A stretch of 64,000 nucleotides of DNA, taken from Hornefia butyriciproducens (lineage in GTDB: Bacteria > Bacillota > Clostridia > Peptostreptococcales > Anaerovoracaceae). The notes below the pieces were generated by a model. The model ran no database searches. It had not been told where the DNA came from and was given only the letters and a program-made list of their open reading frames with translations. Every line of letters starts with the position of its first letter. Within the stretch, counting starts at the first letter, position 1. This document shows positions 2,166-46,771 of the stretch, piece after piece. The stretch is from positions 81,653 through 145,652 of the forward strand of contig NZ_VUMZ01000007.1 in assembly GCF_009695915.1 (NCBI RefSeq). Reading direction: 5' to 3'. A program made the translations under genes and the position numbers.

Positions 2166-3602
2166 TTACTTCAGCGAGAAATCCTCACTGCTGAGACGAT
2201 ACAGCGTCTCAGTATAAATATCGATCATCTGGAAGAAACGGTCCGCTGCAATCTTCTCATTTCTCTGATGCATGATGTCCGGATCCCCCGGGAAAAGACC
2301 TCCGAAGGCCACCATATTGGGACACGCCTTCGCATAGGTTCCTCCGCCGATGACCATAGGGCCGTGCTCTGTATCCCCCGTCTTCGTCCGGTAAATATCC
2401 ATCAGTGTTGTGATCAGCGGGCTGTCCGGCGGGAAGTAAAGCGGGTTCTGGTTCCCGTTCTTCACCAGCCCGAGATTGTACCTGTCCAGAATCGGCATGA
2501 CAGCCTGATAGAGCTGCTCCACGTCCACAGTGACCGGGTAGCGAACGTTCAGTTCTATGGCGATGCTCTCCTGATCGTAGGTGACGATGCCGTTGTTCAT
2601 GGTCAACTTTCCGGAGGCCTCGTCCTCGAATCCGATATTCATCCCCTCGCCGCTGCACTGAAAGCCGATGTGATGATTGTAGAATTCGATGAATTCGTTG
2701 ATGTCGTCACTGGCGAAATTCAGCCTTCCCAGGAATCCGAACAGTACGGATATCGCGTTCAGTCCGTCCTGCGGGGATGCGCCGTGACAGGCCTTTCCCT
2801 CTGCGGTGATCTCCAGCGCCTGACCGACACCCTTCGCCTTCAGCCGGTATCCGGTCTCCTCGCGGTATTCGGCCAGTTCGTTCCGGATATGGTCGTAGGT
2901 CTCTTTGAAATCACTTTTCACAACAGCTCTCGCGGCGTCCGGAACGATGTTCCGTGCGGTGCCTCCTGACAGGCGGCTGAGCTGCAGACCCTTCGCAGGG
3001 CTCTTTGGAAGCTTCTTTGCAATTTCCAGATCACAAAGCCCTTTTTCGCCGTTGATTACCGGGAAATCCCCGTCCGGCGTGATTCCGAAGTCAGGCGCCT
3101 TGACACGTTCCAGGTAATAATCCATTCCCTTCCAGTTGGTCTCCTCATCCAGACCCAGAATCAGGCGGATCCGCCGCTTCGGTTCGTACCCCGCGTCCTT
3201 CAGCGCCTTCATAGCGTAGAACGCCGCTACCACGGGGCCTTTGTCGTCCGTCGTGCCTCTGCCTGTAATAAATCCGTCTTTTTCTTCTCCGCCGTAGGGA
3301 TCGAAATCCCACTCGCCGAGGGCCGGCACCACATCCAGGTGTCCGACCACGCCAAGGGTCTCCTCACCTTCGCCGAAATCGATGTGCCCGCCGTAATGAT
3401 CGATGTCCTCTGTCCGGAATCCATACTCTTCTGCCTTCGAAAGCATATACGCAAAAGCATCCTGTACGCCCTGCCCGAATGGAAAAAATTCCCCGGACGC
3501 AGACGTGACAGGATCCCCCGCATCGCTTTTGATTCTGATCAGTTCCTTCAGAGTACGGACCGCCGGGCCTTTCTGCTGTTCCACATACTGCGCCAGGTTC
3601 AT
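2166..3602 (-). CDS. pepV: Dipeptidase PepV (M20 family metallopeptidase)
   Basis: Cytoplasmic di-zinc peptidase that cleaves dipeptides and some N-blocked amino acids. Motifs in order: GHLDVVPALGEWDFDPYGG (zinc His and Asp), GRGTTDDKGP (bridging Asp), and LGLDEETNWKGMDYYL (general-base and ligand Glu pair), all in the Sapep/PepV pattern; the lid domain follows and a late IGGGTYAK-type segment is present. About 478 residues, normal for PepV. The ATG at 3602 was chosen over an in-frame GTG two codons earlier because AAGGAG lies 5 nt before it. First gene of the run that continues through the S-component to rimI. Confidence 0.93.
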   Translation of the reverse strand: MNLAQYVEQQKGPAVRTLKELIRIKSDAGDPVTSASGEFFPFGQGVQDAFAYMLSKAEEYGFRTEDIDHYGGHIDFGEGEETLGVVGHLDVVPALGEWDFDPYGGEEKDGFITGRGTTDDKGPVVAAFYAMKALKDAGYEPKRRIRLILGLDEETNWKGMDYYLERVKAPDFGITPDGDFPVINGEKGLCDLEIAKKLPKSPAKGLQLSRLSGGTARNIVPDAARAVVKSDFKETYDHIRNELAEYREETGYRLKAKGVGQALEITAEGKACHGASPQDGLNAISVLFGFLGRLNFASDDINEFIEFYNHHIGFQCSGEGMNIGFEDEASGKLTMNNGIVTYDQESIAIELNVRYPVTVDVEQLYQAVMPILDRYNLGLVKNGNQNPLYFPPDSPLITTLMDIYRTKTGDTEHGPMVIGGGTYAKACPNMVAFGGLFPGDPDIMHQRNEKIAADRFFQMIDIYTETLYRLSSEDFSLK

Positions 3603-18963: not shown

Positions 18964-19083
18964 TTCCGACCGTCGCAGATCAATGAGCAATTGAACCGGA
19001 AACCCGCACATGTTATTATGATATGTATGTTTTTTTAATGCGTGCTCAGCAAGTACTGTATTTTGTTCCACAGGAGGCATAAC

Positions 19084-20357: not shown

Positions 20358-21068
20358 TTACACGATTTGTGTCAGACTGCTGAGCTGCTGCAGTCTGTTC
20401 CGGTTCATGGGTCTGACTCCCTGAAGACGGTAGCGCAGCCCCATCCTGTCATATTTGTTCTCCGCCATGTTATGATACCCCAGCAGCTCGATCTTCTTCA
20501 CGGAACGGATCTTCCTGAGGAACTCGTTCAGACTGTAAATATACTGCTCGTCATCGTTAAAGCCGGGAACGATCACCTGACGGATCCAGATCGGCTTGTC
20601 CAGACGGTTGATCACCTCGATCAGACGAAACAGAGGACTCTGCTCCCGGCCGGTCAGCTCCCGGAACTTTTTCGGATCAATATGCTTGATGTCAAGCAGC
20701 AGCATATCTGCCGCATCGATGACCTTCTCCGACATATCGTCAAAATACGTTCCGCTGGTGTCAATCGCCGAGGAGATTCCTTCTCTCTTCAGCGCACGTA
20801 CCGCTTCCAGAACGAATTCGCCCTGCAGCAGCGGTTCGCCGCCGGAAAATGTAACGCCGCCGTTGGCGCCGTAATACGGTCTTCCCCGTTTTGCGCGGCG
20901 CACGACCTCTTCCACGGTGATTTCCTGTCCGCCTGCCGGATTCCACGTGTCCGGATTATGGCAATAGGCGCACCGGGCAGGGCAGCCCTGCAGAAAGAAT
21001 ACGGTACGGATTCCCGGACCGTCAACCGCTCCGAACGTCTCTATTGAGTGTAATCTACCTGTCGCCAT
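20358..21068 (-). CDS. pflA: Pyruvate formate-lyase activating enzyme
   Basis: Radical SAM enzyme that installs the glycyl radical on PflB. Near the N terminus FGAVDGPGIRTVFFLQGCPARCAYCHNPDTW contains the CxxxCxxC cluster motif; a glycine-rich VTFSGGEPLLQ segment for SAM binding follows. 236 residues. GAGGAG precedes the ATG. It lies 131 bp downstream of pflB on the same strand, as in most fermenters, with a strong hairpin in the gap. Confidence 0.95.
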   Translation of the reverse strand: MATGRLHSIETFGAVDGPGIRTVFFLQGCPARCAYCHNPDTWNPAGGQEITVEEVVRRAKRGRPYYGANGGVTFSGGEPLLQGEFVLEAVRALKREGISSAIDTSGTYFDDMSEKVIDAADMLLLDIKHIDPKKFRELTGREQSPLFRLIEVINRLDKPIWIRQVIVPGFNDDEQYIYSLNEFLRKIRSVKKIELLGYHNMAENKYDRMGLRYRLQGVRPMNRNRLQQLSSLTQIV

Positions 21069-21152
21069 GTGTCAACCTGCTCCTCTGAATTCAAAATACT
21101 TTGCAAATACTCTTTCTTCTGCCGCGGCGCTGCCGACAGACTGCCGTCAGCA

Positions 21153-21181
21153 CCCGCAGAACCCGCGCGGAGTTCTGCGGG
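21153..21181 (-). other. Hairpin between pflB and pflA
   Basis: Perfect 10-bp arms CCCGCAGAAC and GTTCTGCGGG with a 9-nt loop, 19 bp after the pflB stop. No T run follows. It may protect the pflB mRNA 3' end or lower pflA expression relative to pflB. Confidence 0.55.
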
Positions 21182-21199
21182 AGGACATTATCCGATATC

Positions 21200-25566: not shown

Positions 25567-25700
25567 TCTCTTTTTCTGTTTCCTCACTTTCTCAGTTTAT
25601 CCGCCTTCAGCGGACTTCTCACATCATACCTTCTTTCAGCTATAATGTAAAATCATATTTTTTCATATATCCATACGGAAATTTTATGATACAATAATAT

Positions 25701-25960
25701 AGTGTCTGCCCATTAAGTCCCCGCCGGACTTAATGGGCGCTGACGGCAGTTTATCAGCAGCGCCGCGGCGCACCATCTAATGGAAGAAGGCGCCGGCAGA
25801 CACTAATTGATGCCTGTGCTCAGGGATTCGGCCGTTTCCGAATCCCACTGCCGCAGGGTTTTCGGATGAAACGCTTGAAAACCTTGCGGCAGGCTACCGA
25901 ATATGCTCTTTGTATTATTGATATTTCAAGCATATTCGGTGGCTGAGCACGCATTAATAT
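25701..25960 (+). repeat. Hairpin-rich repeated element, copy A
   Basis: Full copy of about 260 bp in the gap between the YeiH and LysR genes. It is built of two multi-branched inverted-repeat modules. Left module: outer arms AGTGTCTGCC (25701-25710) and GGCAGACACT (25795-25804) enclosing CATTAAGTCC/GGACTTAATG and GC-rich hairpins. Right module: outer arms TGATGCCTGTGCTCAG (25808-25823) and CTGAGCACGCATTA (25943-25956) enclosing GGATTCGG/CCGAATCC, CTGCCGCA/TGCGGCAG and ACCGAATATGCT/AGCATATTCGGT. Related copies lie at 35381-35550 (inverted) and 36481-37110. No coding capacity is evident. Confidence 0.85.
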
Positions 25961-26012
25961 ATGTATTGTCGGCATTTCGGGCACACGCCCCCTGAGGAGG
26001 AATTTCAGCATC

Positions 26013-26891
26013 ATGTTAGATTATCGGCTGCAGACCTTTCTTACGGTCTGCGAAACCCTGAACTACACCCGTGCGGCGAAAGAACTCGGACTTACGCAGC
26101 CGGCGGTGTCCCGACACATCAGGAGCCTGGAAGTGGAATACGGCGTACCGCTCTTTGTGCACAAAAATAAACGCATCTCGCTTTCCCCTGCGGGGACTCT
26201 GCTGATGCGACACGCCCGGACGATCCGCAGCGACGGTGAACTCCTGCGTCAGCAGCTGAAGGACACGAATGCTCAGGTTCGGGAACTTCATATGGGCACC
26301 ACCAAAACCATCGCCGACTTTGTCATCGGCCGCCCGATAGTTCGTTTTCTGCGCGAAAATCCCGATCTCAGACTTCATCTGTCCGTCTCCAACACAACAG
26401 AACTGCTGGAACGGATCCGTCAGGGCACGCTGGATGTGGCACTGGTCGAAGGGCACTTTGACTCCGGGGAATTCGATTTCTGCCGGTACAGCACTGAGGA
26501 ATTTATTGCGGTAGCGTCAGCGAAGCATGCTTTTGCACACGAACCGCTGAATCTCCGTGAGGTTCTGAATGAACCTCTGCTGATCCGGGAACCGGGCTCG
26601 GGCACGAGGGATATTCTTGAGAAAAACCTCGCCGCAGCGGAGCTGAACATCGGCGATTTCAGGCGGTGCGTTGAAATCGGAAGTATGCACATCATCCTGC
26701 AGCTGCTGGAGGCGGATATGGGAATCTCCTTTATGTACCGCGCGGCCGCAGCAGAGGCACTGTCACGGGGAAGTCTGCGACAGCTCCGACTGTGCGATTT
26801 CCGGGTGAAGCATGATTTCAGTTTCGTATGGAACAAAGGAAGCCTTTTCGCGGATACGTTTCGCAAAATCTGCCGGGAACTGCGAGAGTAG
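26013..26891 (+). CDS. LysR-family transcriptional regulator
   Basis: 292 residues. N-terminal winged helix-turn-helix FLTVCETLNYTRAAKELGLTQPAVSRHIRSLE (about residues 9-40), then a periplasmic-binding-like effector domain with SNTTELLERIRQGTLDVALVEG and EPGSGTRDILEKNL. It resembles YeiE/CysL-type regulators found divergent to yeiH, so the YeiH transporter is the probable target. AGGAGG precedes the ATG. The promoter region between the two genes is occupied by repeat copy A, which may supply or displace control elements. Confidence 0.92.
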   Translation: MLDYRLQTFLTVCETLNYTRAAKELGLTQPAVSRHIRSLEVEYGVPLFVHKNKRISLSPAGTLLMRHARTIRSDGELLRQQLKDTNAQVRELHMGTTKTIADFVIGRPIVRFLRENPDLRLHLSVSNTTELLERIRQGTLDVALVEGHFDSGEFDFCRYSTEEFIAVASAKHAFAHEPLNLREVLNEPLLIREPGSGTRDILEKNLAAAELNIGDFRRCVEIGSMHIILQLLEADMGISFMYRAAAAEALSRGSLRQLRLCDFRVKHDFSFVWNKGSLFADTFRKICRELRE

Positions 26892-26921
26892 TCCACCCGA
26901 CCGCCCGCACCGCATCAGACA

Positions 26922-26968
26922 GAAAGCCGCCGCACCTGCGCCTCTCAGCGCCCGGTACGGCGGCTTTC
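26922..26968. terminator. Bidirectional terminator between lysR-type gene and the small membrane protein gene
   Basis: 11-bp arms GAAAGCCGCCG and CGGCGGCTTTC with a 25-nt loop, between converging genes. T-rich tracts are short on both sides. Confidence 0.65.
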
Positions 26969-27007
26969 CCGTCTTCCGACATATCATTTCTGTCTGCTTT
27001 CGCAGAC

Positions 27008-27223
27008 TTAATCCTCCAGATCCTCGCCGGCCCAGTCGTCGCTGGACCATTCCTCGTCCGGCCAGTCCTCGTTGACGAAAATACGTTTCATGACCTGATC
27101 CATTCCGATAACCAGAGTCACCCCGGTGACTACTCCGACGCCAATGACAGCCAGCATCACCTTCGCGGCTTTGGACGTGGTCTTTCTGCCCTGATCCGCT
27201 TTATTCGCGCTCATTTTGTTCAT
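27008..27223 (-). CDS. Small single-pass membrane protein with acidic tail
   Basis: 71 residues: basic N terminus with Ser/Thr/Lys (cytosolic), one hydrophobic segment VMLAVIGVGVVTGVTLVIGM (about residues 22-41) and a strongly acidic C-terminal tail rich in Asp, Glu and Trp. No domain recognised. Gene status is supported by a perfect GAAGGAGGT site 5-6 nt before the ATG. It follows the cytidylate kinase-like gene by 17 bp on the same strand, so the two are probably cotranscribed. Confidence 0.75.
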   Translation of the reverse strand: MNKMSANKADQGRKTTSKAAKVMLAVIGVGVVTGVTLVIGMDQVMKRIFVNEDWPDEEWSSDDWAGEDLED

Positions 27224-27240
27224 GTTCTACCTCCTTCAGA

Positions 27241-27855
27241 TCACCTGTACGTTCTTGTCTTAACAAAGTCAACTACCAGATCCGCAGCCGCTTCTTCGGA
27301 GATATAGCTGCTGTTAATGCTGAGATTGTAGTTTTCATACGCTCCCCATTTCTGGCAGGTGTGATAATTATAGTAATTCGCCCGGGCTTTGTCGTAGGTC
27401 GTGATCTTTTTTCTGACCTCCTCCGGGTCGTCCCCGTATACCTCCACACAGCGTTTGACCCGATCCGGAAGCTCCGCATAGATGAAGACATTAGTCACAT
27501 TCGGAATATTCTTCAGAATGTAATCCGCGCAGCGTCCGACAATGACGCCCTCGCCGAGCTCGCCGATCTGCTCGATGATATCGAACTGTGTCAGAAAGAG
27601 TTTCTCGTTCATGGAAATCGGTTCGCGGTAGATATTATCGCCGAACACCATCGCGGATGACAGCGTGTAAGTAAACGCACTCTTCGCTCTCAGTTCTGCC
27701 GATTCAATCACCTCGCGGGAAAGACCGCTTTTCTTGACAGCGATGTCGATGATTTCCTTATCATAACACGGGACGCCCAGCTTCTCCGCAATCATGGCGC
27801 TGATCTGTCTGCCGCCGCTTCCATATTCTCTGCTTACTGTGACTAGTTTCTTCAT
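27241..27855 (-). CDS. Cytidylate kinase-like family protein
   Basis: 204-residue P-loop kinase-like protein beginning MKKLVTVSREYGSGGRQISAMIAEKLGVPCYDKEII, the pattern of the cytidylate_kin2 family common in clostridia. The phosphate loop is EYGSGGRQI. A later GEGVIVGRCADYIL segment and an AELPDRVKRC helix are also typical. True substrate is unproven; family members are often next to unrelated genes. AGGGGTGAGG precedes the ATG at 27855, chosen over an upstream in-frame start. Confidence 0.9.
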   Translation of the reverse strand: MKKLVTVSREYGSGGRQISAMIAEKLGVPCYDKEIIDIAVKKSGLSREVIESAELRAKSAFTYTLSSAMVFGDNIYREPISMNEKLFLTQFDIIEQIGELGEGVIVGRCADYILKNIPNVTNVFIYAELPDRVKRCVEVYGDDPEEVRKKITTYDKARANYYNYHTCQKWGAYENYNLSINSSYISEEAAADLVVDFVKTRTYR

Positions 27856-28073
27856 TTGCCTCACCCCTTCTTTGTATATCATCATTATATACTAAATGCG
27901 GCGGAAAAGAAACAGCATTTTTCAGACAATATTTTCGCAGGGCACGGGCGCGGGCACTCGACCGTCTTTGATTCCGCCGTCGTCATGCGGATGACGCAGA
28001 TGCGAGACCGGCTGGCCTCGCATTCACAGATATCAAGCGGTACAGAGCTCGCCCGGCCGCGCCGCCGTTGTCC

Positions 28074-29945
28074 TCAGGACACCTTTTCGAACTGGGAATT
28101 GTAGAGTTCCGCGTAGAATCCGTTTTGTGCCAGAAGCTCCTCATGAGTCCCCTGTTCAATGATATCGCCGTGGTTCATGACCAGAATCAGATCCGCGTTC
28201 CGTATCGTGGAAAGGCGATGAGCGATGACAAAGCTGGTCCGCCCCTCCATCAGAGTGTCCATGGCGGTCTGGATCTGCTCCTCTGTACGGGTATCCACCG
28301 ATGAGGTGGCCTCGTCCAGAATCAGCACACGATTATCCGCCAGAATCGCGCGGGCGATAGTGAGCAGCTGCTTCTGCCCTTGTGAGACATTGGTGGCGTC
28401 CTCGTTCAGCTCCATATCGTAACCTCCCGGAAGAGTCCGGATGAAGTGATCAGCGTGAGCCGCCTTCGCCGCAGCGACGACCTCCTCATCCGTCGCATCC
28501 AGACGCCCGTAACGGATATTTTCCATAATCGTTCCGGAAAACAACCATGTGTCCTGCAACACCATACCGAAGTTCTCCCGCAGCTCGTGACGATCGAACC
28601 GGCGTATATCCACGCCGTCCAGCGTGATACTTCCGGCATTCACATCGTAGAAGCGCATCAGCAGCTTGACCATCGTGGTCTTGCCGGCGCCGGTCGGGCC
28701 GACAATGGCGATTTTCTGGCCGGGCTCGGCCACCGCGCTGAAGTCGTTGATGACAATCTGATCCTCACTGTATCCAAACCGGACATGGTCAAACCGGACG
28801 CGTCCCTCAACCTTCTCCAGATGAACCGGATCCGGAGGCGTCAGCTCCTCCTCTTCCTCTGCGAGGAATTCAAAGACACGTTCCGAGGCCGCCGTCATAG
28901 ACTGCACCTGATTCATGACCTGTGCGATCTGGGCGATGGGCTGCGTCAGATTCTTGACGTACTGGATAAACGCCTGAATATCTCCGATTCCGATGGTTCC
29001 GCGTATCGCCAGGAATCCCCCGGAAATAGCGACACCTGCGTATCCCAGATTTCCGACAAACATCATCAGAGGCTGCATGATTCCCGAAAGGCACTGCGAC
29101 TTCCAGGCAGAATCATAGAGCACGTCGTTGGTCTGCCCGAAAGTTTCAATCACATCGTCCTCTTTGCTGAACGCTTTGATAACCTGCTGCCCGGCGAAAT
29201 TCTCCTCTACCTGTCCGTTGATGTGGCCCAGATAATTCTGCTGTGTCTTGAAATATTTCTGCGAGAAGCGGATCAGAAGAGTCATCAGCACCGCAGAAAC
29301 CGGAATGACGACAAGTGCGATCAAAGTCATCAGCGGAGAGATGGTCAGCATCATCACGATCACGCCGATGATGGTCGCCACAGATGTGATAATCTGCGTA
29401 ATGCTCTGATTCAGTCCGGTTCCAAGTGTATCGACATCATTGGTGATGCGGGAGAGAACCTCGCCGTAGGTTCTGCTCTCAAAGTATTTCATGGGCATGC
29501 GGTCAATTTTCTCTGCAATCTCCCGGCGCATGCGATAGCAGATTTTCTGGGTGATTCCCGTCATGATCCAGCCCTGCAGAAACGCGAACACCGCGCTTGC
29601 GATATACAGACTCAGCGTTATCAGGAGAATACGGGCGATCGTTCCGAAATCAATTCCTCCGGTTCCGCTGATCTTCCGCATGAGCCCCTCGGCAATCTCC
29701 GTGGTGGCGTTTCCCATGATTTTCGGTCCCATCACGTTGAACACCGTGGATGCAGCCGCGAATATCATCACGAAAAACACGCCGATTCTGTATCTTCCCA
29801 TATACCGGAGCAAGTCCCCGAAGGACTTCCGGAAATGCTTCGGTTTTTCACCGGGGATCATCCCCGCGGGTCCGCCGTGGCCTCCGGGTCCCCCCGGCCC
29901 GGGATGTCTGCGGGGCGCCGTTTTCATCGAACTGTCTTCCTTCAT
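28074..29945 (-). CDS. ABC exporter half-transporter with canonical ATPase site (permease-ATPase fusion)
   Basis: 623 residues: a Gly/Pro-rich N-terminal stretch, six membrane helices (about 45-340) and an ATPase domain with Walker A GPTGAGKTT, a signature NVSQGQKQ and Walker B ILDEATSSVDTRTE with the catalytic Glu. Its start follows the stop of the 769-residue partner directly, preceded by GGAGGGG. The two are transcribed together and would form a heterodimeric exporter for drugs, lipids or peptides; the substrate is unknown. The partner has a degenerate catalytic residue, so this subunit should carry out most ATP hydrolysis. Confidence 0.93.
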   Translation of the reverse strand: MKEDSSMKTAPRRHPGPGGPGGHGGPAGMIPGEKPKHFRKSFGDLLRYMGRYRIGVFFVMIFAAASTVFNVMGPKIMGNATTEIAEGLMRKISGTGGIDFGTIARILLITLSLYIASAVFAFLQGWIMTGITQKICYRMRREIAEKIDRMPMKYFESRTYGEVLSRITNDVDTLGTGLNQSITQIITSVATIIGVIVMMLTISPLMTLIALVVIPVSAVLMTLLIRFSQKYFKTQQNYLGHINGQVEENFAGQQVIKAFSKEDDVIETFGQTNDVLYDSAWKSQCLSGIMQPLMMFVGNLGYAGVAISGGFLAIRGTIGIGDIQAFIQYVKNLTQPIAQIAQVMNQVQSMTAASERVFEFLAEEEEELTPPDPVHLEKVEGRVRFDHVRFGYSEDQIVINDFSAVAEPGQKIAIVGPTGAGKTTMVKLLMRFYDVNAGSITLDGVDIRRFDRHELRENFGMVLQDTWLFSGTIMENIRYGRLDATDEEVVAAAKAAHADHFIRTLPGGYDMELNEDATNVSQGQKQLLTIARAILADNRVLILDEATSSVDTRTEEQIQTAMDTLMEGRTSFVIAHRLSTIRNADLILVMNHGDIIEQGTHEELLAQNGFYAELYNSQFEKVS

Positions 29946-32255
29946 CTATATCCCCTCCAATTCTGTACTGGAAAGCTGCGATTCCGCGATCTGGCGATAC
30001 ACTTCACAGTTCTCCATCAGCTCCTGATGGGTTCCCTTTCCCACCATATGTCCTTCGTCCAGCACCAGGATCTGATCCGCGTTCAGGATCGTGCTTATCC
30101 GCTGTGCCACAACAATCGTCGTCGCATCCTTTACCTTCTCAGACAGCTTTTTCCGCAGCTTCGCATCTGTCTTCATGTCAAGCGCCGAAAAGCTGTCGTC
30201 GAAAATCAGTATCCTCGGCCGCCGGGCGATGGCTCTGGCAATGGCAAGCCGCTGCTTCTGTCCGCCGGACACGTTGCTTCCTCCCTGTGACACATCACTT
30301 TCAAAGCCCATATTTTTCTCTTCAATGAAGTCTGCCGCCTGGGCGATCTCTGCGGCCTCCCGCATTTCCTCGTCGGATGCGTCTTTGTTCCCGAAACGTA
30401 TGTTGGAGGCGATGGTTCCGGAGAACAGCACTCCCTTCTGAGGAACAAAGCCTATTTCACCGCGCAGAGCGCGCAGGCTCAGATCCCGGATCTCCACACC
30501 GTCCACCTTCAGCCTTCCTCCGGTAATATCGTAGAAGCGGGGAATCAGATTCACCAGAGTACTTTTTCCGGAACCCGTGCTCCCGATAATGGCAGTAGTC
30601 TTTCCCGGCTCCGCCGTAAAGGTGATATCCGTCAGCACATTATGCTCCGCGTCCGGATAACGGAAGTCCACATGCTCGAATTCCACAACACCCTTCGGCG
30701 CGCTGATTTCCCGGGGATGCTCCGGGTCCTGAATCGAAGATCCGGTCCGGATGACCTCATCGATCCGTTCCGCTGCAACACCTGCTCTGGGAAGTATGAT
30801 GGACATGACCGTGATGATTAAGAAGGACATGACGATCATCATCGAATATGTGATGAATGCGGTCATCGCGCCCACCTGAAGTGTCCCGTCGTCAATGCGG
30901 TGTGCCGATACCCAGGTTATCAGCACGATCAGCGCGAACATAAACATCTGCATGGATGGCTGCATCAGTGTCATGACGCGGTTGGTAAACAGCTGCGTCC
31001 TCTTCAGCCTCTCGTTGGCGACATCAAATCGCTTCTCTTCCTCCTTCTCTCTCCCGAAGGCGCGGATTACCGAAAGTCCGGTGAGGATCTCCCGCGAGAC
31101 CCGGTTCAGACCGTCCACAAGCTTCTGCATGATCCGGAACTTCGGAAGCGTGACTGCGAAAAGAACGCCCACAAACGCAATGATCATCAGAATCGCCAGA
31201 GCGATGATATATCCCATATGAGCGCCGGTCTGTGCCACCTTGATAATGCCCCAGATTCCCATAATCGGTGCATACATGACCATGCGCAGCATCATGGTCG
31301 TCACCATCTGTATCTGCTGCACGTCGTTGGTACAGCGTGTAATCAGCGACGCAGAGGAAAATCTGCCGATTTCCGCATTGGAAAAGCTCATCACGTTCCG
31401 GAACAGCTTTCCTCTCAGATCACGTCCCACAGAAGCTCCGATCCGCGCCGCGAAGAAAGAAGCCACCGCCGCGGCGATAAACATCATCAGCGCCATCAGA
31501 AACATCCTGCCGCCTTCTCTCCATAGATACTGTTTCTGGATCCGGTTTACGTTCATCCCCGCCGCTTTGTCACATCCGGCCGCATAGGCGATTCCCATGG
31601 ATTTCAAAGTCTGTGTCCCCACTGAATCGATGGTCTTCTCCATCTGTTTCTTCGCATTCGTCACCGCCGAATCCGACATAACTCCGGAATCGATCATGCT
31701 CTGCATCATCGAACGCATATCCACATATGTCTTCACTTTTCCGTTCTCGTCCTCCGCCCGGAAGGTGTCGATGTCATAATGAAGAAGTTCTCCGATTTCC
31801 TTTACCGACATATCGTCAATACGCGATGCGACAGCCCTGCTCTGAGAATTCTTCTGCTGCAGCAGAAAAGAACGGATGATTTTTCTGAACTGGGATACAC
31901 TGGTATGTCCCATCTCGTAGGTGAGTACGATCGGAGTCAGAAGTTCCTGATCTAGTTCGTCCAGCCTGTCTCCATCCGTGACGTTCAGAACATACCGGCT
32001 CCCCTGTCTGGTGTAGATGCTATTCCACGTCTTTTTCTCCGTCTTTGTCATGAAGATTCCCGCGGCTTTATACTCCTCCGCCGTTACCTTCTCCGGCACG
32101 ATATGCTCAATGCCCTTGTTCTGAATCCCCACATCGATGATATCCTGTGTGTACTCCGGCAGCGCCAGGTCACAGTAGGCCTGAATGCAGAGCATCAGCG
32201 CCAGAATTATAACGGTAACTCGGTAGGGCTTCAGATTCCCTATTATTTTCCTCAT
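29946..32255 (-). CDS. ABC exporter half-transporter with large extracellular insert and degenerate Walker B
   Basis: 769 residues. The first membrane helix is followed by an insert of roughly 190 residues (about 45-240), predicted outside the cell, before the remaining helices. The ATPase domain has Walker A GSTGSGKST and signature NVSGGQKQ, but Walker B reads ILIFDDSFSALD with Asp in place of the catalytic Glu, the usual sign of the degenerate site in heterodimeric exporters such as BmrCD. It overlaps the marR-type stop by 4 bp (ATGA) and is followed immediately by the 623-residue partner. Confidence 0.92.
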   Translation of the reverse strand: MRKIIGNLKPYRVTVIILALMLCIQAYCDLALPEYTQDIIDVGIQNKGIEHIVPEKVTAEEYKAAGIFMTKTEKKTWNSIYTRQGSRYVLNVTDGDRLDELDQELLTPIVLTYEMGHTSVSQFRKIIRSFLLQQKNSQSRAVASRIDDMSVKEIGELLHYDIDTFRAEDENGKVKTYVDMRSMMQSMIDSGVMSDSAVTNAKKQMEKTIDSVGTQTLKSMGIAYAAGCDKAAGMNVNRIQKQYLWREGGRMFLMALMMFIAAAVASFFAARIGASVGRDLRGKLFRNVMSFSNAEIGRFSSASLITRCTNDVQQIQMVTTMMLRMVMYAPIMGIWGIIKVAQTGAHMGYIIALAILMIIAFVGVLFAVTLPKFRIMQKLVDGLNRVSREILTGLSVIRAFGREKEEEKRFDVANERLKRTQLFTNRVMTLMQPSMQMFMFALIVLITWVSAHRIDDGTLQVGAMTAFITYSMMIVMSFLIITVMSIILPRAGVAAERIDEVIRTGSSIQDPEHPREISAPKGVVEFEHVDFRYPDAEHNVLTDITFTAEPGKTTAIIGSTGSGKSTLVNLIPRFYDITGGRLKVDGVEIRDLSLRALRGEIGFVPQKGVLFSGTIASNIRFGNKDASDEEMREAAEIAQAADFIEEKNMGFESDVSQGGSNVSGGQKQRLAIARAIARRPRILIFDDSFSALDMKTDAKLRKKLSEKVKDATTIVVAQRISTILNADQILVLDEGHMVGKGTHQELMENCEVYRQIAESQLSSTELEGI

Positions 32256-32758
32256 ATATTTTCATCTCCCTTCCCTTTATCGCAGCACTCTGCTTTCTCC
32301 GCCTCCGCGGCGTCCATCAGCTGCGCCAGAGAATCCAGCAGCGTTCTGACATTCTCCTGTCCCATCCGGAGAAAAATACCCCGAAAGAACCGGTCCATCT
32401 GCGACCTGCACTGTCCGCATTTTTCCCAGCCTTTTTCAGTAAGGCGCACCAGCGTATTTCTCCGGTCACCGGGATCCGCAGATCTCTGGGTATATCCCTT
32501 CAGCTCGAGATTCCGGAGACTCCGTGAAACGGCCGGAGGCGGCACCGGTAGTGCCTGCACGATATCCGATACTCTGACGAAATCTCTGTCTCTCATCTCA
32601 TGGCCGATAGCGATCATGGTATGCAGATCCCCCTGATTCAGATCACAGTCCTTTATCTGCGGATGGAGCCGTTTGATGCGTCCGATCAGATGAATCAGTT
32701 CCCGCTGGTCTTCGCGAATCCGTTCACTTTCTTCATTTTCTGCCTTCTTTCTTTCCAT
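32252..32758 (-). CDS. MarR-family transcriptional regulator of the exporter operon
   Basis: 168 residues with a winged helix-turn-helix: DIVQALPVPPPAVSRSLRNLELKGYTQRSADPGDRRNTLVRLTEKG is the recognition helix and wing with the DxRxxxVxLT pattern. First gene of the exporter operon, overlapping the 769-residue subunit gene. A perfect palindrome at the predicted transcription start (32810-32826) is the likely operator, so it probably represses its own operon until a ligand binds. Two Cys residues near the C terminus and two mid-protein could allow redox sensing, which is speculation. AAGGAG precedes the ATG. Confidence 0.93.
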   Translation of the reverse strand: MERKKAENEESERIREDQRELIHLIGRIKRLHPQIKDCDLNQGDLHTMIAIGHEMRDRDFVRVSDIVQALPVPPPAVSRSLRNLELKGYTQRSADPGDRRNTLVRLTEKGWEKCGQCRSQMDRFFRGIFLRMGQENVRTLLDSLAQLMDAAEAEKAECCDKGKGDENI

Positions 32759-32809
32759 ACGTTCTCCTTCCGCGCCGCTCTGACTGCCCGCGTCTGCATA
32801 TCATTATCT

Positions 32810-32826
32810 TTGTTAATAATTAACAA
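32810..32826. promoter_or_regulatory. Palindromic operator of the MarR-exporter operon
   Basis: Perfect 17-bp palindrome TTGTTAATAATTAACAA, beginning 1-2 bp after the predicted start site (about 32828). A further GTTAAC half site lies next to it at about 32828-32833. Confidence 0.7.
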
Positions 32827-32834
32827 TGTTAACG

Positions 32835-32863
32835 ATTCTAGCACTGTGCCTTCACCGTGTCAA
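32835..32863 (-). promoter_or_regulatory. Sigma-A promoter of the MarR-exporter operon
   Basis: Minus strand TTGACA (32863-32858), 17 bp, TAGAAT (32840-32835), a near-consensus promoter. Confidence 0.8.
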
Positions 32864-32911
32864 GAAAAAACTCGCAAAGATCACATAAACTTTTATAAAA
32901 AAATCCGCTGC

Positions 32912-32925
32912 GTAACATTTGTTAC
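32912..32925 (+). promoter_or_regulatory. Crp/Fnr-type operator upstream of hcp (HcpR-like)
   Basis: Inverted repeat GTAAC-ATTT-GTTAC. Its centre (32918.5) is 41.5 bp upstream of the start site predicted from the -10 TATTAT at 32948-32953, and no good -35 is present. This is the standard position for a class II Crp/Fnr activator; HcpR-type regulators control hcp in many anaerobes. Confidence 0.6.
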
Positions 32926-33062
32926 CGTCATTTTCCCGCTGACGTGATATTATGCAGACAACATACGAAATCGATACGCAGTGACGGCGCCCCGGGATCC
33001 GGCTTTTCCGAGCCTCTCAGAGCGCACGCTCAGCAAACGCCATGAAAACGGAGGTAATCAAT

Positions 33063-34697
33063 ATGGAAAACAAAATGTTCTGCTATCAGTGTCAGGAAAC
33101 CGCCGGCTGCACGGGCTGCACCGTGTCCGGAGTATGCGGCAAGAAGCCGGAGGTCGCTGCGATGCAGGATCTTCTGATTTATGTCACAAAGGGACTTTCC
33201 GCGGTCGCCTGCCGGCTCCGTCAGGAGGGAACCGCAGTCAGCAAGGATGTCAATCATCTGGTGACTCTCAACCTGTTTACTACAATCACAAATGCAAACT
33301 TCGACAAGGACGCCATCGTGGCCAGAGTCAAGGAAACACTGGCAGTCAAGCAGCAGCTTCTGGATCAGGTCCGCAACAACAACGACCTGCCTCCGGCTGC
33401 GCTGTGGAACGGAAGCGAGGACGAGTATGCGGCTAAAGCCGCCGCCAACGGAGTTTTGTCCACCAAAGACGAGGATGTGCGCTCCCTGCGCGAACTGATC
33501 ACCTACGGTCTCAAGGGGCTCTCTGCCTATACAAAGCATGCGAATGCACTGCTGGAGGATGACGCCGACGTCGATGTGTTCATCCAGGAGACGCTGGCAA
33601 AGACTCTGGACGATTCGCTGTCCGTGGACGACCTGGTCGCACTGACACTGGAAACCGGAAAATACGGCGTACAGGGCATGGCGCTGCTGGACAAGGCCAA
33701 CACCGGCGCTTACGGAAATCCGGAAATCACCACGGTGAATCTGGGTGTCCGCAGCAACCCGGGAATTCTGGTCTCCGGTCACGACCTGAAGGATCTGGAG
33801 ATGCTTCTGGAGCAGACAAAGGGAACCGGCGTGGACGTCTACACTCACTCCGAGATGCTGCCGGCCCACTACTATCCGTTCTTCAAGAAATATGACAACT
33901 TCGTAGGCAACTACGGAAATGCCTGGTGGCAGCAGAAGGACGAGTTCGAGAAATTCAACGGACCGATCCTGATGACAACCAACTGCATCGTCCCGCCGAA
34001 AGACAGTTACAAAGACCGTCTTTGGACCACCGGCGCCGCCGGATATCCGGGATGCAGGCACATCGACGCGGCCTACGGCGAGGTAAAGGACTTCTCGCCC
34101 ATCATCGAGCAGGCGAAGAGCTGTTCCGCTCCCACAGAACTGGAGCAGGGTGAGATTGTCGGCGGATTCGCGCACGAGCAGGTGTTCGCGCTGGCCGATC
34201 AGGTGGTGGACGCCGTCAAGTCCGGTGCGATCAGGAAGTTCGTCGTAATGGCAGGCTGCGACGGCCGTCAGAAGACGAGAAGCTACTATACGGACTTCGC
34301 GAAGGCTCTGCCGGAGGATGCGGTGATCCTGACCGCAGGATGCGCCAAGTACAAATATAACAAGCTGGGACTGGGCGACATCAACGGAATCCCCCGTGTT
34401 CTCGACGCCGGTCAGTGCAACGATTCCTATTCTCTGGCGCTGATCGCGCTGAAGCTGAAGGAAGTGTTCGGACTGGACGATGTCAACGATCTGCCGATCG
34501 TCTACAACATCGCGTGGTATGAGCAGAAGGCAGTCATCGTACTGCTGGCGCTCCTGTCCCTGGGCGTGAAGAACATCCACCTCGGACCGACCCTTCCGGC
34601 CTTCCTGTCGCCGAACGTGACCAACGTTCTGGTGGAGAACTTCGGAATCGGCGGAATCGGCACAGTCGAGGACGACATTCAGAAATATTTCGGCTGA
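33063..34697 (+). CDS. hcp: Hydroxylamine reductase / hybrid-cluster protein Hcp
   Basis: Fe-S protein with a 4Fe and a hybrid Fe-S-O cluster, linked to nitric oxide and hydroxylamine detoxification. The N-terminal motif [22 protein letters not shown] supplies the first cluster cysteines; hybrid-cluster ligands appear in [31 protein letters not shown] and [12 protein letters not shown]. 544 residues, class I-like length. GGAGGT precedes the ATG at 33063; an earlier in-frame ATG at 33042 overlaps that site. Single-gene unit with a possible HcpR-type activator site and a strong terminator. Confidence 0.95.
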
Positions 34698-34744
34698 TAT
34701 TCAACAGCCCGGCGGCTTCCGCGGCCGCGGAAGCCGATACAGTC

Positions 34745-34787
34745 AAAAGCGCCCCGTGCGATACAGTTCGCCGGGGCGCTTTTTTTA
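34745..34787 (+). terminator. Intrinsic terminator of hcp
   Basis: Arms GCGCCCCG (34749-34756) and CGGGGCGC (34772-34779) followed by eight T residues. Confidence 0.9.
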
Positions 34788-34791
34788 AGCA

Positions 34792-35091
34792 TTATTCGAA
34801 AATCCTCGTAATATCCTGATACCGATTGATTACTCGATAAATCTCAACATACTCTTTACTTGCCTTGTAGATAATCACATAATCTTCCCATATCGCATAT
34901 TTATAATCTGTCCTGAAACTGACTCGTTTTGAAAGATCTGATCCCATTCCCGGAAGCATCTGGAGATTTTCAAATTTACCGTAAATTTCCTTTATAGTCT
35001 TTGCCGCATATTCCTCATTGTCTTCAGCAATATAATCCCGAATATTCTTCAGTTCCTTTGCAACAATCGGGTTAATCCGCAGTTTTAACAT
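34792..35091 (-). CDS. RelE/ParE-family toxin
   Basis: 99-residue type II toxin with the compact RelE fold pattern: LKLRINPIVAKELKNIRDYIAEDNEEYAAKTIKEI, then a middle GMGSDLSKRVSFRTDYKYAIWEDYVIIYKASKEYVEIYRVINRYQDIT strand set. RelE-type toxins cleave ribosome-bound mRNA, ParE types poison gyrase; which applies is not decidable here. The start at 35091 lies 2 bp after the antitoxin stop with GGAGAA in front; an in-frame start 5 codons earlier would overlap the antitoxin. More AT-rich than the surrounding genes, as for mobile modules. Confidence 0.9.
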   Translation of the reverse strand: MLKLRINPIVAKELKNIRDYIAEDNEEYAAKTIKEIYGKFENLQMLPGMGSDLSKRVSFRTDYKYAIWEDYVIIYKASKEYVEIYRVINRYQDITRIFE

Positions 35092-35092
35092 C

Positions 35093-35341
35093 TTATTCTC
35101 CCACAAGTGCCTTCAATTCATCCAAATTCAGCCATCCTTCACCGTCTTTCACTGCTTCTTCGGCTTCCTGCAGCTTCATCAAAAGCTTTTTTTCTGCACG
35201 ATCACGCTCATAATCTTCAAAATCCATAACCACAAAACGCCCTCTGCCGTTCTTGGTAAGATATACAGGTTCACCTTTGCGACAGTTTTTCAGGACTTCA
35301 TTATAATTTCTCAAATCAGATACCGGTAAAATACTCGCCAT
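35093..35341 (-). CDS. Phd/YefM-family antitoxin
   Basis: 82 residues beginning MASILPVSDLRNYNEVLKNCRKGEPVYLTKNGRGRFVVMDFEDYER, the N-terminal DNA-binding domain of Phd/YefM antitoxins, with an acidic C-terminal toxin-binding tail. It precedes the RelE/ParE toxin gene and would neutralise the toxin and repress the pair. GGAAGGAG lies before the ATG. An inverted copy of the hairpin-rich repeat begins 40 bp upstream, so it may contribute the promoter region. Confidence 0.92.
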   Translation of the reverse strand: MASILPVSDLRNYNEVLKNCRKGEPVYLTKNGRGRFVVMDFEDYERDRAEKKLLMKLQEAEEAVKDGEGWLNLDELKALVGE

Positions 35342-35380
35342 ATACTTTCAGCTCCTTCCTTGATTTTATCTTGTTTCTGC

Positions 35381-35550
35381 TACTTGATGCGTGCTCAGCT
35401 ACCGAATATGTTTGAAATATCAATAGTACAAAGAGCATATTTGGTAGCCTGCCGGCGCATCCTTCCATTGGATGGTCACCGCAGCGCTGTTGACAAACTG
35501 TCGTCAACGCTCGTTAAGTCCGACGAGGATTTAATGAGCAGACACTACTT
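35381..35550 (-). repeat. Hairpin-rich repeated element, copy E (inverted, internally deleted)
   Basis: Read on the minus strand it starts AGTGTCTGCTCATTAA and ends CTGAGCACGCATCAAGTAG, matching both ends of copies A-C, but about 90 bp of the middle (the right outer arm and its first two hairpins) is missing; the join lies at a short GGCA/GCCGGCA repeat. Many substitutions show it is older than copies B and C. It lies directly upstream of the toxin-antitoxin pair. Confidence 0.75.
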
Positions 35551-35561
35551 ATATTATACAC

Positions 35562-35600
35562 AAAAGCTGTAAAATTCAACGTGAATTTTTACAGCTTTTT
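35562..35600 (+). terminator. Rho-independent terminator-like hairpin
   Basis: 14-bp near-perfect stem beginning GCTGTAAAA with TTTTTACAGC on the other arm and five T residues after it. No gene on the plus strand directly precedes it; it may belong to a lost gene or to the repeat. Confidence 0.55.
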
Positions 35601-35941
35601 CAAGCGATAATTCAGTCTTTGTTGTTACAGAATTCCGAATCCGAATAACGAATAAGATATCATTCTTTATTGAATATAAACTACATTTGCTATTAATATT
35701 CGTGCCAATCACTCTTATTACTTAAGCACCGCTCCGCGCAAAGATGTATTGAATTATTCAGAAAAATACGTTTAGATGTTATTGTGCACTCTATCTGTTA
35801 AAAAAATCCGGATGTCTGCAACGCTTGATACAAATGTTAAATTACGTTGCTTGATTAGCAGGAAATCCGGTGACATAATGGAAATAGAATACAGAGAAGC
35901 CGACTGCAAAACGGCAAAGACAAATAGGAAAGGCAGGATCT
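35601..35941. other. AT-rich intergenic stretch without recognised gene
   Basis: About 340 bp, noticeably more AT-rich than the genome average. It holds no open frame with a ribosome site and no recognised RNA; the HTH membrane protein gene starts at its right end. Confidence 0.5.
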
Positions 35942-36325
35942 ATGACGCTCAGTGAAAATATAAAAAATTTGCGCAAACGAGCAGTAATGACTCAGGAACA
36001 ACTTGCTGATAAGCTCGGCGTTACAAGACAGACCGTGTCAAAATGGGAAAATAACATGTCTGTTCCGGATGCAGATATATTGTCTGAGATGGCAGATGTT
36101 TTTGACGTTTCGGTAAGCGAACTTCTCGGATACGGCGCGAACAACGGTTCAACAAAAGACTATGCCAAAATTTTAGCCTCATTGAATGGAGAACTTGCAG
36201 AAAAGAGCCGATTCCGGAAATCAATCCTACGGATTATAAAAGCGGTGCTGATACTATTGGGTGTGGGGTTCGCAGCACTGATACTGTATATTTTATTTTG
36301 GATGTTCATTGCCGCAGGCATGTAA
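35942..36325 (+). CDS. XRE-family regulator with C-terminal membrane helix
   Basis: 127 residues. An N-terminal helix-turn-helix LSENIKNLRKRAVMTQEQLADKLGVTRQTVSKWENNMSVPDADILSEMADVFDVSVSELLG (about 3-62), a short linker, and one hydrophobic segment near the C terminus (about 98-124). This is the layout of membrane-tethered Cro/C1-type regulators in clostridia, often linked to local stress or transport genes. AGGCAGGA precedes the ATG. It lies between the toxin-antitoxin pair and the tandem repeat array in an AT-rich patch, which suggests acquisition, but the target is unknown. Confidence 0.85.
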   Translation: MTLSENIKNLRKRAVMTQEQLADKLGVTRQTVSKWENNMSVPDADILSEMADVFDVSVSELLGYGANNGSTKDYAKILASLNGELAEKSRFRKSILRIIKAVLILLGVGFAALILYILFWMFIAAGM

Positions 36326-36480
36326 TCAATGTACAAACATTGCCTGAAAAGCTCCGACAAAAGCTTACAAGGTTTTGTGCTCATGCAACGAGAGTACGAA
36401 CCCTTTTTTGTGAACAGGTACAAATCAGAACAGTATTTTTTCCTCTGTCCGCTTGTTATCTTTCCGCGTCGTGCTATTAT

Positions 36481-36743
36481 AATTAGTATCTGCTCATTAA
36501 GTCCCCGTTGGACTTAATGGGCGCTGACGGCAGTTTATCAGCAGCGCCGCGGCGCACAATCTATCCAACGGTAGTGTGCGCCGGCAGACACTACTTGATG
36601 CCTGTGCTCAGGGATTCGGCCGTTTCCGAATCCCGCTGCCGCAGGAGTTTCGGATGAATCGCTTGAAAACCTTGCGGCAGGCTACCGAATATGCTCTTTG
36701 TATTATTGATATTTCAAGCATATTCGATAGCTGAGCACGCATT
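36481..36743 (+). repeat. Hairpin-rich element, copy B (tandem unit 1)
   Basis: First full 263-bp unit of the array, starting AATTAGTATCTGCTC. It differs from unit 2 at only two visible positions (in the first and second hairpins). It keeps all hairpins of copy A, including GGCGCACA/TGTGCGCC arms that differ from copy A while remaining paired. Confidence 0.88.
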
Positions 36744-37006
36744 AATTAGTATCTGCTCATTAAGTCCCCGTCGGACTTAATGGGCGCTGACGGCAGTTTG
36801 TCAGCAGCGCCGCGGCGCACAATCTATCCAACGGTAGTGTGCGCCGGCAGACACTACTTGATGCCTGTGCTCAGGGATTCGGCCGTTTCCGAATCCCGCT
36901 GCCGCAGGAGTTTCGGATGAATCGCTTGAAAACCTTGCGGCAGGCTACCGAATATGCTCTTTGTATTATTGATATTTCAAGCATATTCGATAGCTGAGCA
37001 CGCATT
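36744..37006 (+). repeat. Hairpin-rich element, copy C (tandem unit 2)
   Basis: Second full 263-bp unit, otherwise identical to unit 1, so the duplication is recent. The 263-bp period is exact (AATTAGT at 36481, 36744 and 37007). Confidence 0.88.
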
Positions 37007-37110
37007 AATTAGTATCTGCTCATTAAGTCCCCGTCGGACTTAATGGGCGCTGACGGCAGTTTGTCAGCAGCGCCGCGGCGCACGATCCGACGGCTGAACG
37101 CGCATTAATA
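37007..37110 (+). repeat. Hairpin-rich element, copy D (partial, abuts racemase gene)
   Basis: Keeps the first ~80 bp of the unit and the last ~25 bp (GCTGAACGCGCATTAATATA); the middle is deleted. The racemase ribosome site (AAGGAG) follows within 10 bp, so the promoter of that gene must lie in or before this copy. Confidence 0.8.
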
Positions 37111-37130: not shown

Positions 37131-37847
37131 ATGAACAGGAAAATTGGCGTAATCGGCGGCATGGGACCCATGGCCAGTCAACTTTTTTATAAGATGGTCA
37201 CGGAGAAAACGGTTGCGGACAGAGACCAGGATCACGTCCCGATGATGATTCTGAGCGACCCCCAGATGCCGGACCGCACGCAGGCGATTCTCAGCGGGAA
37301 GACAGATGAGGTCACAGCGCGTCTCCTTGAGGACGCACGGACGCTGGAAAACTGCGGCTGCGACGCCATCGCGATCACCTGCAACACGGCTCATTACTTT
37401 GCGGACAAAATCGCCGGCGAACTGCGTATTCCGATCATCCATATGATCCGGGAGACTGCCGAAGAAACTGCAAAGGAGGCGGCAGCAACAGGAAACCGCA
37501 GGGTCGCCATACTTGCCACGGACGGAACCATCCGAACCGGACTTTACCAGAAGGCGCTGGAAGCGCAGGGACTTGAGCCTTTTGTTCCCGGCCCCGAAGG
37601 TCAGGCGCTGGTCATGCATGAGATTTACGACTGTGTCAAGGCGGGTCTTCCATACGATCGGGAGGCCTGGACGGACATCCACAGAGAACTGACCGGGCAC
37701 GGATGCGGGCGGGCGCTTCTGGCCTGCACGGAGCTTTCCGTCATCGGCAGCGACAACGACCTTGGCGATATGTATAAAGACCCGCTGGAGGTTCTGGCGC
37801 GCCGCGTCATTGAATTTTCCGGTCACAAAGTAAAACCGGATCGGTAA
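37131..37847 (+). CDS. Aspartate/glutamate racemase family protein
   Basis: Cofactor-independent amino-acid racemase, cytoplasmic, 238 residues. It begins MNRKIGVIGGMGPMASQLFY and has the two catalytic-Cys segments AIAITCNTAHYF (about residue 83) and LLACTELSVI (about residue 195). The pattern fits aspartate racemase/YgeA-type enzymes better than MurI; the exact substrate is not certain. AAGGAG lies 10 nt before the ATG. It is followed by an amino-acid permease and an M20 enzyme on the same strand, suggesting a role in using amino acids or acylated amino acids. Confidence 0.9.
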   Translation: MNRKIGVIGGMGPMASQLFYKMVTEKTVADRDQDHVPMMILSDPQMPDRTQAILSGKTDEVTARLLEDARTLENCGCDAIAITCNTAHYFADKIAGELRIPIIHMIRETAEETAKEAAATGNRRVAILATDGTIRTGLYQKALEAQGLEPFVPGPEGQALVMHEIYDCVKAGLPYDREAWTDIHRELTGHGCGRALLACTELSVIGSDNDLGDMYKDPLEVLARRVIEFSGHKVKPDR

Positions 37848-46687: not shown

Positions 46688-46771
46688 ATCGGTCCTCCTT
46701 TGTACCACCAGCGCCCGTAATGTCCGACGGGAGCTCAATCAGCAGATATTGTTTATGGCATCATTATCGCA

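Follow-up and report, generated by a model that had tools for sequence, protein, structure and literature searches.

A dispersed miniature inverted-repeat element with two predicted three-branch modules in Hornefia butyriciproducens and related species

A stretch of 64,000 nucleotides from Hornefia butyriciproducens (NCBI RefSeq assembly GCF_009695915.1, contig NZ_VUMZ01000007.1, positions 81,653 to 145,652; henceforth, the window) contains five copies of a repeated element of about 258 bp, and the element is a miniature inverted-repeat transposable element (MITE). The explanation that we regard as quite likely is that of a non-autonomous MITE that inserts into A/T-rich sites resembling TAATTA, with a duplication of 5-6 bp, that has two predicted modules of three branches each, and that is moved in trans, likely by a DDE transposase of the IS5 family. 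This explanation is built on the dispersed copies and their limits, target duplications, empty sites, ends shared with insertion sequences (IS), the likeness of one hairpin in the genome G005 and an excess of TATAAT directly ahead of the left end, all of which are observations, and on a fold that is a prediction. In what follows, G000 is the genome of H. butyriciproducens itself (2.44 Mb, 28 contigs), G007 is a sister species, other G numbers designate other genomes and L numbers designate loci.

A dispersed family with target duplications and empty sites

The element starts with GTGTCTGCTCA and ends with TGAGCACGCATT. It has no gene of its own, and the short open reading frames (ORFs, 62-123 aa) that overlap some copies are calls of a simple ORF script. 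If the neighbouring bases are included, the terminal repeats (TTAGTGTCTGCTCA and TTAATGCGTGCTCA) are imperfect sequences of 14 bp that agree at 11 of 14 positions. The bases that precede the left end, 5-6 bp and A/T-rich, recur after the right end, and these duplications covary at both ends from site to site (AATAA, AAATA, AAGTA, AATTTA and AATATA, among others). In some copies, e.g., those of L013, L079 and L085, the duplication has been lost or has diverged.

When 12 joined flanks were searched for in G000 and G007, 5 of the 12 gave an orthologous stretch free of the element. The target is single and unchanged at two of these empty sites: AATTTA (L014 versus L152) and AATAA (L010 versus L154). 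At the site of the G007 copy of L080, G000 reads AATTA, and the right duplication of the copy has drifted to AACTA. At the site of window copy A, G007 lacks the element and differs by two bases within the target, and the empty site of L009 has diverged at the junction. No contiguous empty site was found for the remaining 7 of the 12 sites; the flanks of L079 match G000 sequences about 94 bp apart. As judged from the orthologous sites, the element has jumped since the sister species split off. An earlier examination of the window (the sequence-only reading) had proposed a mobile, MITE-like folding element, and this proposal is borne out by further copies, target duplications and unoccupied orthologous sites, that of copy A included.

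A different repeat is also associated with the element: the copy at positions 3001-3259 of L077 (G007) is centred in another repeated palindrome (GGTTTTGTAGGTTAATTAACCTACAAAACC-like), as is the case at several places in G000 and G007. Further matches to this palindrome occur in both genomes.

The family is larger than first claimed. With copy C2 of the window as a query, at least 49 matches were obtained in G000, a lower bound because 40 of 115 candidates were scored; among the matches listed, 13 are near full length, with 88-100% identity, the query included. A copy from G005 used as a query, with 40 candidates scored in each genome, gave at least 39 matches in G007 versus at least 36 in G000. 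Among 40 relatives, the load of G007 is comparable to that of G000, and the G005 version is 69% identical. Matches were found in 4 of 17 genomes of the genus, those in G012 being short. More distant versions are found in another two species of the genus and, outside it, in two genera of the same family (G178 and G218). The versions of these two genera were detected by means of a module 1 model in a sample of 247 genomes of the family, in which G007 and G012 are not among the positives. Five of 393 genomes sampled from the order were positive, all of them inside the family. Both scans are samples, and G178 is not among the order positives, presumably because it was not drawn.

A pattern scan of named genome contigs yielded three stretches, one of which (L112, from the uncultured Clostridiales RUG409) carries the element between flanks that resemble those of L016. 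The other two, in an Alphaproteobacterium and a Mycobacterium, have a 20-base match and were taken as chance. Carriage by plasmids or phages was likewise discarded, as blastn with the copy of L009 matched none of 72,556 plasmid records and none of 50,697 phage records; the hairpin-4 pattern was found in none of the viral contigs. Literature searches, for which subscription literature was mostly out of reach, found no description of this element family.

Predicted fold and its conservation

The predicted fold comprises two modules, each made of one stem and three branches. Module 1 is closed by the stem TAGTRTCTGC/GCAGACACTA and bears branches H1, H2 and H3, while module 2 is closed by TTGATGCYTGTGCTCA/TGAGCACGCATTAA and bears H4, H5 and H6. 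The closing pairs of copy C2 are 4-113 and 117-263 (in a query of 263 nt), so that the ends of the element lie about 3 nt apart in the predicted folded strand. Compared with dinucleotide shuffles, C2 gives a z of about -10, both as DNA and as RNA, and in the case of RNA for both strands; the modelled fold is thus far from chance. The plan of two modules with three branches is predicted for every one of the 28 full-length copies of G000, G007 and G005, which represent three species, with a small extra hairpin in the copy of L088. In G012, three copies of module 1 lack a recognisable module 2.

A target-like sequence, CTAATTG or CTACTTG, separates modules 1 and 2. With its modules split in this manner, and with copies in tandem, the element resembles a chain of units joined by target-like linkers, and we infer a composite origin from chained units.

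The sequence-only reading had claimed that paired arms change together. This is clear when G005 is compared with the rest and also within G178; between the closely related copies of G000 and G007 such changes are few. In 26 full copies of the latter genomes, 13 double-changed cells were counted, versus 112 cells that are mismatched, GU or AC (24 mismatches, 37 GU and 51 AC). Between G000/G007 and G005, H2 and H3 have mostly different sequences with the same form, and H1, H4, H5 and H6 show paired changes. In G178, for which both modules are predicted, yet another set of sequences makes up H2, H3 and the arms of H4-H6. When the copies of G178 were compared among themselves, 10 of 39 pairs were found to be changed on both sides with 97.8% of the cells paired, a figure that none of 500 shuffles equalled, and 12 further pair types were counted, a number that 90 of 500 shuffles reach; six sequences enter this analysis, and the shuffle control does not remove their relatedness. 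Module 1 of G012 and G218 has kept its three branches. Sequence similarity persists at the ends, at the apex of H1 (around CCGTC, of which variants occur) and, in elements that have a module 2, at the apex of H4 (around CCGTTT). Altogether, the lineage retains the plan while resident copies decay.

Among the mutated stem pairs of 87 rows, 131 GU and 184 AC cells were counted, the rows being related and the counts therefore lacking independence. GU thus shows no advantage over AC, and nothing indicates selection on the sense RNA.

Several loci showed further peculiarities. At a site common to L015 (13369-13627, G000) and L081 (3001-3259, G007), H1 equals its reverse complement except at one base, as an inversion of the hairpin would produce. 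A unit with a single hairpin between two left-type ends (TTAGTGCCTGTTCA...TGAGCAGGCACTAA) lies directly behind a TATAAT in L120 of G007 (about 2960-3015). A second small hairpin repeat (GGTCTTATACAGCACTTCCAAAATC...) is common to several loci of G178 (L231, about 1650-1790; L232; L234), and is found inside module 2 in L231. In L238 of G218 (1700-1900), module 1 is followed by several long palindromes (TTTCGACGT.../...ACGTCGAAA), which perhaps belong to another repeat family.

Candidate mover and polarity towards the -10 box

A search with the pattern of the end sequences led to an insertion sequence in G007 with a terminal repeat, TTAGTGTCTGCTCA, of 14/14 matching positions. In G012, the transposase is an open frame of 479 aa, which scores 420 bits with the NCBIfam model of the IS5 family (cut-off 275) and has a Pfam DDE domain. 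Related insertion sequences, or pieces of them, were detected in G003, within the genus, and outside the genus in G154 and G260. Their 5' ends read TAGTGWGTGCTCAC in G012, G154 and G003, and TAGTGTCTGCTCAC in G007; their 3' ends read TAGTGTCTGCTCAA in G007 and G260, with one or two base differences in G012, G003 and G154. Comparison by eye indicates that the left end of the element agrees at 14 of 14 positions with the 3' end that the insertion sequences of G007 and G260 have in common, and the right end at 12 of 14 with the 5' end of G003. In sequence, the left end fits the 3' type, and the type nearest to the right end is the 5' one. The insertion sequence of G003 has AATTTA on both sides. 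In addition, an alignment of H5 from a G005 copy with the hairpin in the leader of the G007 insertion sequence, at the expected place and in the expected orientation, scored 38 (the top of 200 shuffles was 29). An IS5-family DDE transposase with matching ends is a better candidate for the mover than a Y1 transposase. The broken insertion sequence of G007 adjoins a stretch (L113, 5632-5710) that looks like the first two hairpins of a G005-type element; this insertion sequence may have inserted into an old copy or right next to one.

The left junctions showed a second regularity. The collection comprised 104 copies or fragments, 77 of them with an assignable left junction; after 22 had been merged or dropped as orthologous or tandem, 55 independent left junctions were left. 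An exact TATAAT is present within the last 16 bases in 18 of these 55, compared with 1 of 35 right junctions read outward (Fisher p 5e-4) and with 13 of 458 intergenic control sites that resemble the target and lie in the loaded loci (2e-11). If the left junctions are limited to those with the target core of the controls, the hexamer is found in 11 of 27 (p 3e-9). The 25 independent copies with two ends have TATAAT seven times on the left and never on the right, and the left junctions of G178 have it in 3 of 9 cases. At 8 of the 55 left junctions the reversed hexamer is present, and 7 of these also contain TATAAT. Between box and left end there are 1-7 nt; a fixed promoter motif as the target was rejected, as the box keeps no single distance. 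The downstream gene is in sense in 14 of the 18 cases with an exact box, versus 14 of 30 without any box (p 0.04), counts that are rough since the gene calls come from the simple ORF script and contain errors, and that leave out copies shorter than 45 bp. The three sites of the window fit this pattern, copy A being located behind TACAAT and copies B and C behind TATAAT, and the box is present without the element at 3 of the 5 empty sites (L152, L153 and L158), the last of which is the unoccupied G007 site with the TACAAT of copy A. Another group of copies is found at stop codons of the upstream gene, in TAA-rich sites, and others lie between convergent genes.

A tentative mechanism can be outlined. 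Each module would pair a terminal repeat with an internal inverted copy, and one folded strand would present both ends of the element as duplexes about 3 nt apart; these paired duplexes may help the transposase bring the ends together. Insertion would preferentially take place in the readily melting DNA between the -10 box and the start of transcription, the left end facing the box, and the downstream gene would thereby often acquire the element as its 5' leader. Because of its position, transcription of the element as a 5' leader is likely. The complete scheme is that of a self-synapsing MITE: a single folded strand, with its ends in duplex form and side by side, would be taken by an IS5-type DDE transposase and inserted with fixed polarity into a melted active promoter, thus becoming a 5' leader. 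We consider this scheme possible and rather doubtful. If it is true, selection would act on the fold at the time of jumping and not on resident copies, and the plan would consequently survive between genera while single copies decay.

A number of observations weigh against the explanation that we prefer, or against parts of it. No IS5-family transposase was found in G000, G005, G178 or G218, for which reason transposition in trans is inferred; in sister species with differing insertions, the mover is either lacking or missing from the assemblies. Only G012 has an open transposase frame: G000 lacks an intact transposase, and the frame of G007 (298 bits) is broken by one internal stop. Because the genomes with recent copies lack an intact transposase, membership in an IS5 system is incomplete. 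The right end of the element matches the insertion sequence of G007 at only 11 of 14 positions, and no clean duplication surrounds the insertion sequences of G007 and G012. The similarity of H5 is confined to the G005 copies and to one of four 5' ends, and no match of this type was found for the elements of G000 and G178 (none above z 5 in base-composition shuffles). With regard to polarity, 37 of the 55 left junctions have no exact TATAAT, the A/T-rich target itself could supply part of the -10 signal, and support for a -35 box is weak (four or more matches in 9 of 25, versus 16 of 100 at shifted spacings, p = 0.047). Lastly, resident copies mostly decay without compensation, so that the fold is not maintained copy by copy.

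Two other explanations concern the nature of the element, and both had been mentioned in the sequence-only reading. Movement as single-stranded DNA of a REP-type element by an IS200/IS605 (Y1) transposase would agree with long hairpins, intergenic location and many copies. The Y1_Tnp domain (PF01797) had no match in G000, to which this search was limited apart from its controls, while 5 of 14 control genomes were positive; besides, target duplications, which are not expected from the IS200/IS605 mechanism, are present, and the terminal inverted repeats are in common with a DDE insertion sequence. We hold this explanation to be extremely improbable. A cis-acting structured RNA, either a regulator in the 5' leader or an mRNA stabiliser that is kept for its RNA fold, with spread as a secondary trait, would account for the many copies between a -10 box and a start codon, for the sense orientation in 14 of 18 TATAAT cases (with the roughness of the gene calls) and for a very stable RNA fold. 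Its stems should, however, be richer in GU if a sense RNA were selected, and they show no excess of GU over AC (131 versus 184; 37 versus 51). Moreover, some copies are located at 3' ends or between convergent genes, sister species differ in their sets of copies, and empty sites exist. No Rfam family matched the window at the gathering threshold; at E up to 1, the best match was a miRNA model with 19 bits versus a cut-off of 90. A structured RNA thus seems improbable as the main explanation.

The remaining alternatives accept the MITE and dispute the significance of its fold or of its location. The fold might be a mutational by-product without function, if template switching or hairpin inversion in the course of replication kept its hairpins perfect. 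Quasi-palindrome correction is a known process that can yield double changes without selection; resident copies otherwise decay, and the H1 of L015 and L081 looks inverted. Template switching or hairpin inversion could indeed contribute to the paired changes. It is not obvious that such correction would preserve how many branches there are, in which order they stand, or the likeness of the apices of H1 and of H4, and yet module 1 has three branches in five lineages (G000/G007, G005, G178, G012 and G218) and both modules are predicted in three of them, with branches 2 and 3 differing in sequence. We deem this explanation rather unlikely. Association with promoters, in turn, might reflect survival: the element would insert at any TAATTA-like site and in both orientations, and sense insertions behind a -10 box would be tolerated. 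In agreement with this possibility, insertions are also found at stop codons and between convergent genes, and the target motif alone is nearly palindromic. The short distance between box and end (1-7 nt) and the strong polarity (18 of 55 versus 1 of 35; 7 versus 0), which extends to another genus (3 of 9), speak for directed insertion; survival could still produce polarity. We view survival as a serious possibility, albeit one that we do not favour.

Copies in the window, related systems and implications

All five copies claimed for the window were found, and their exact limits are given in Table 1 together with neighbouring features. Copy B, described as inverted and deleted, is indeed on the minus strand and has an internal deletion; since a full-length copy of 263 bp occupies the orthologous site of G007 (L076), copy B has lost its middle. 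The comparison of flanks between the two genomes took in copies of 90 bp or more. Copy C3 had been called partial: it is shortened, by an internal deletion, and both of its ends are retained. The claim of copies in both orientations holds with respect to the plus strand, and within the window copies A, B and C are each directed towards their own downstream gene. Two degraded relics were also detected, as well as a solitary right-end sequence (TTAATGCGTGCTCA) at 19036-19049 with no recognisable element around it; a similar site exists in G007 (L116).

Table 1. Element copies, junction sequences and neighbouring genes, in coordinates of the window
Feature	Position	Strand	Details
Degraded relic of module 1	21068..21188	-	absent from the list of the sequence-only reading; covariance-model match E 1.6e-6; blastn piece 21121-21155
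Predicted -10 box TACAAT (TGATACAAT)	25690..25695	+	right before copy A; from sequence
Left target duplication AATATA, copy A	25696..25701	+	single at the G007 site, two base differences
Copy A	25702..25955	+	full-length; module 1 about 25700-25806, module 2 25807-25955
Right target duplication AATATA, copy A	25956..25961	+	
LysR-type regulator gene	26013..26891	+	downstream of copy A; Pfam PF03466, PF00126
ParE-type toxin gene	34792-35106	-	after the Phd/YefM-type antitoxin gene; Pfam PF05016
Phd/YefM-type antitoxin gene	35093..35341	-	downstream of copy B; Pfam PF02604
Right target duplication, copy B	35381..35385	-	AAGTA on minus (TACTT on plus)
Copy B	35386..35545	-	internal deletion between two GGCAG repeats
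Left target duplication, copy B	35546..35550	-	AAGTA on minus
Predicted -10 box TATAAT	35553..35558	-	before copy B; from sequence
Predicted -10 box TATAAT	36478..36483	+	before the tandem copies; overlaps AATTA
AATTA, left target-like sequence of C1	36481..36485	+	
Copy C1	36486..36743	+	full-length
AATTA linker C1/C2	36744..36748	+	
Copy C2	36749..37006	+	full-length; module 1 36749-36855, module 2 36858-37006
AATTA linker C2/C3	37007..37011	+	
Copy C3	37012..37106	+	internally deleted; left end and a right end (GCTGAACGCGCATT) retained
Asp/Glu racemase gene	37131..37847	+	downstream of the tandem copies; Pfam PF01177
Degraded relic of left end and hairpin 1	46709..46748	-	blastn E 3e-5

Palindromic intergenic repeats in large numbers are well known from REP/BIME sequences and their RAYT (Y1) transposases. 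The element is likewise palindromic, intergenic and numerous, and differs by the lack of a Y1 transposase in G000 and by its target duplications. Further comparisons draw on the available parts of three sources. Bacterial MITEs moved in trans by insertion sequences (PMC10969869) resemble the element in having no gene, terminal inverted repeats, a target duplication, A/T-rich intergenic sites, a stable folded transcript (the fold being predicted here) and an insertion sequence with similar ends; two fixed three-branch modules, stems that vary between genera and polarity towards the -10 box set the element apart. BOX, RUP and SPRITE are repeats of Streptococcus pneumoniae, and BOX has a modular boxA-boxB-boxC structure; for BOX and RUP, mobilisation by insertion sequences with similar ends (ISSpn2 and IS630-Spn1) has been proposed (PMC3049150). 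Like these repeats, the element is folded and intergenic, modular as is BOX, and accompanied by an insertion sequence with similar ends, whereas sequences, species and mover differ, and neither box-directed insertion nor stem replacement is mentioned in the available part of that source. Correia elements of Neisseria are MITEs located mostly upstream of genes, one of them directly behind a promoter (mtrCDE); they can carry a promoter of their own, while the box lies outside the element described here (PMC10969869). Insertion of IS5 in Escherichia coli is favoured where the duplex melts easily and around promoters (PMC5493358). The likeness is that of an IS5-family transposase, a candidate in our case; IS5 is a full insertion sequence with a 4-bp Py-T-A-Pu target, and the present element is a MITE with AAWWA-like targets of 5-6 bp. 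From what these sources contain, the nearest systems in behaviour are the folded MITEs BOX and Correia, together with the insertion of IS5 at easily melted DNA.

A specialist would not expect that the plan is kept with differing stems, nor polarity towards the -10 box. The interior of a MITE is generally regarded as residual sequence. In this family, genera that differ in many of the stems share one branch plan, which suggests that folded DNA has a function in DDE-type transposition; through their polarity with respect to the -10 box, such elements would systematically give rise to 5' leaders. These two ideas lend themselves to direct tests, as G012 has an insertion sequence with an open frame and natural empty sites exist.

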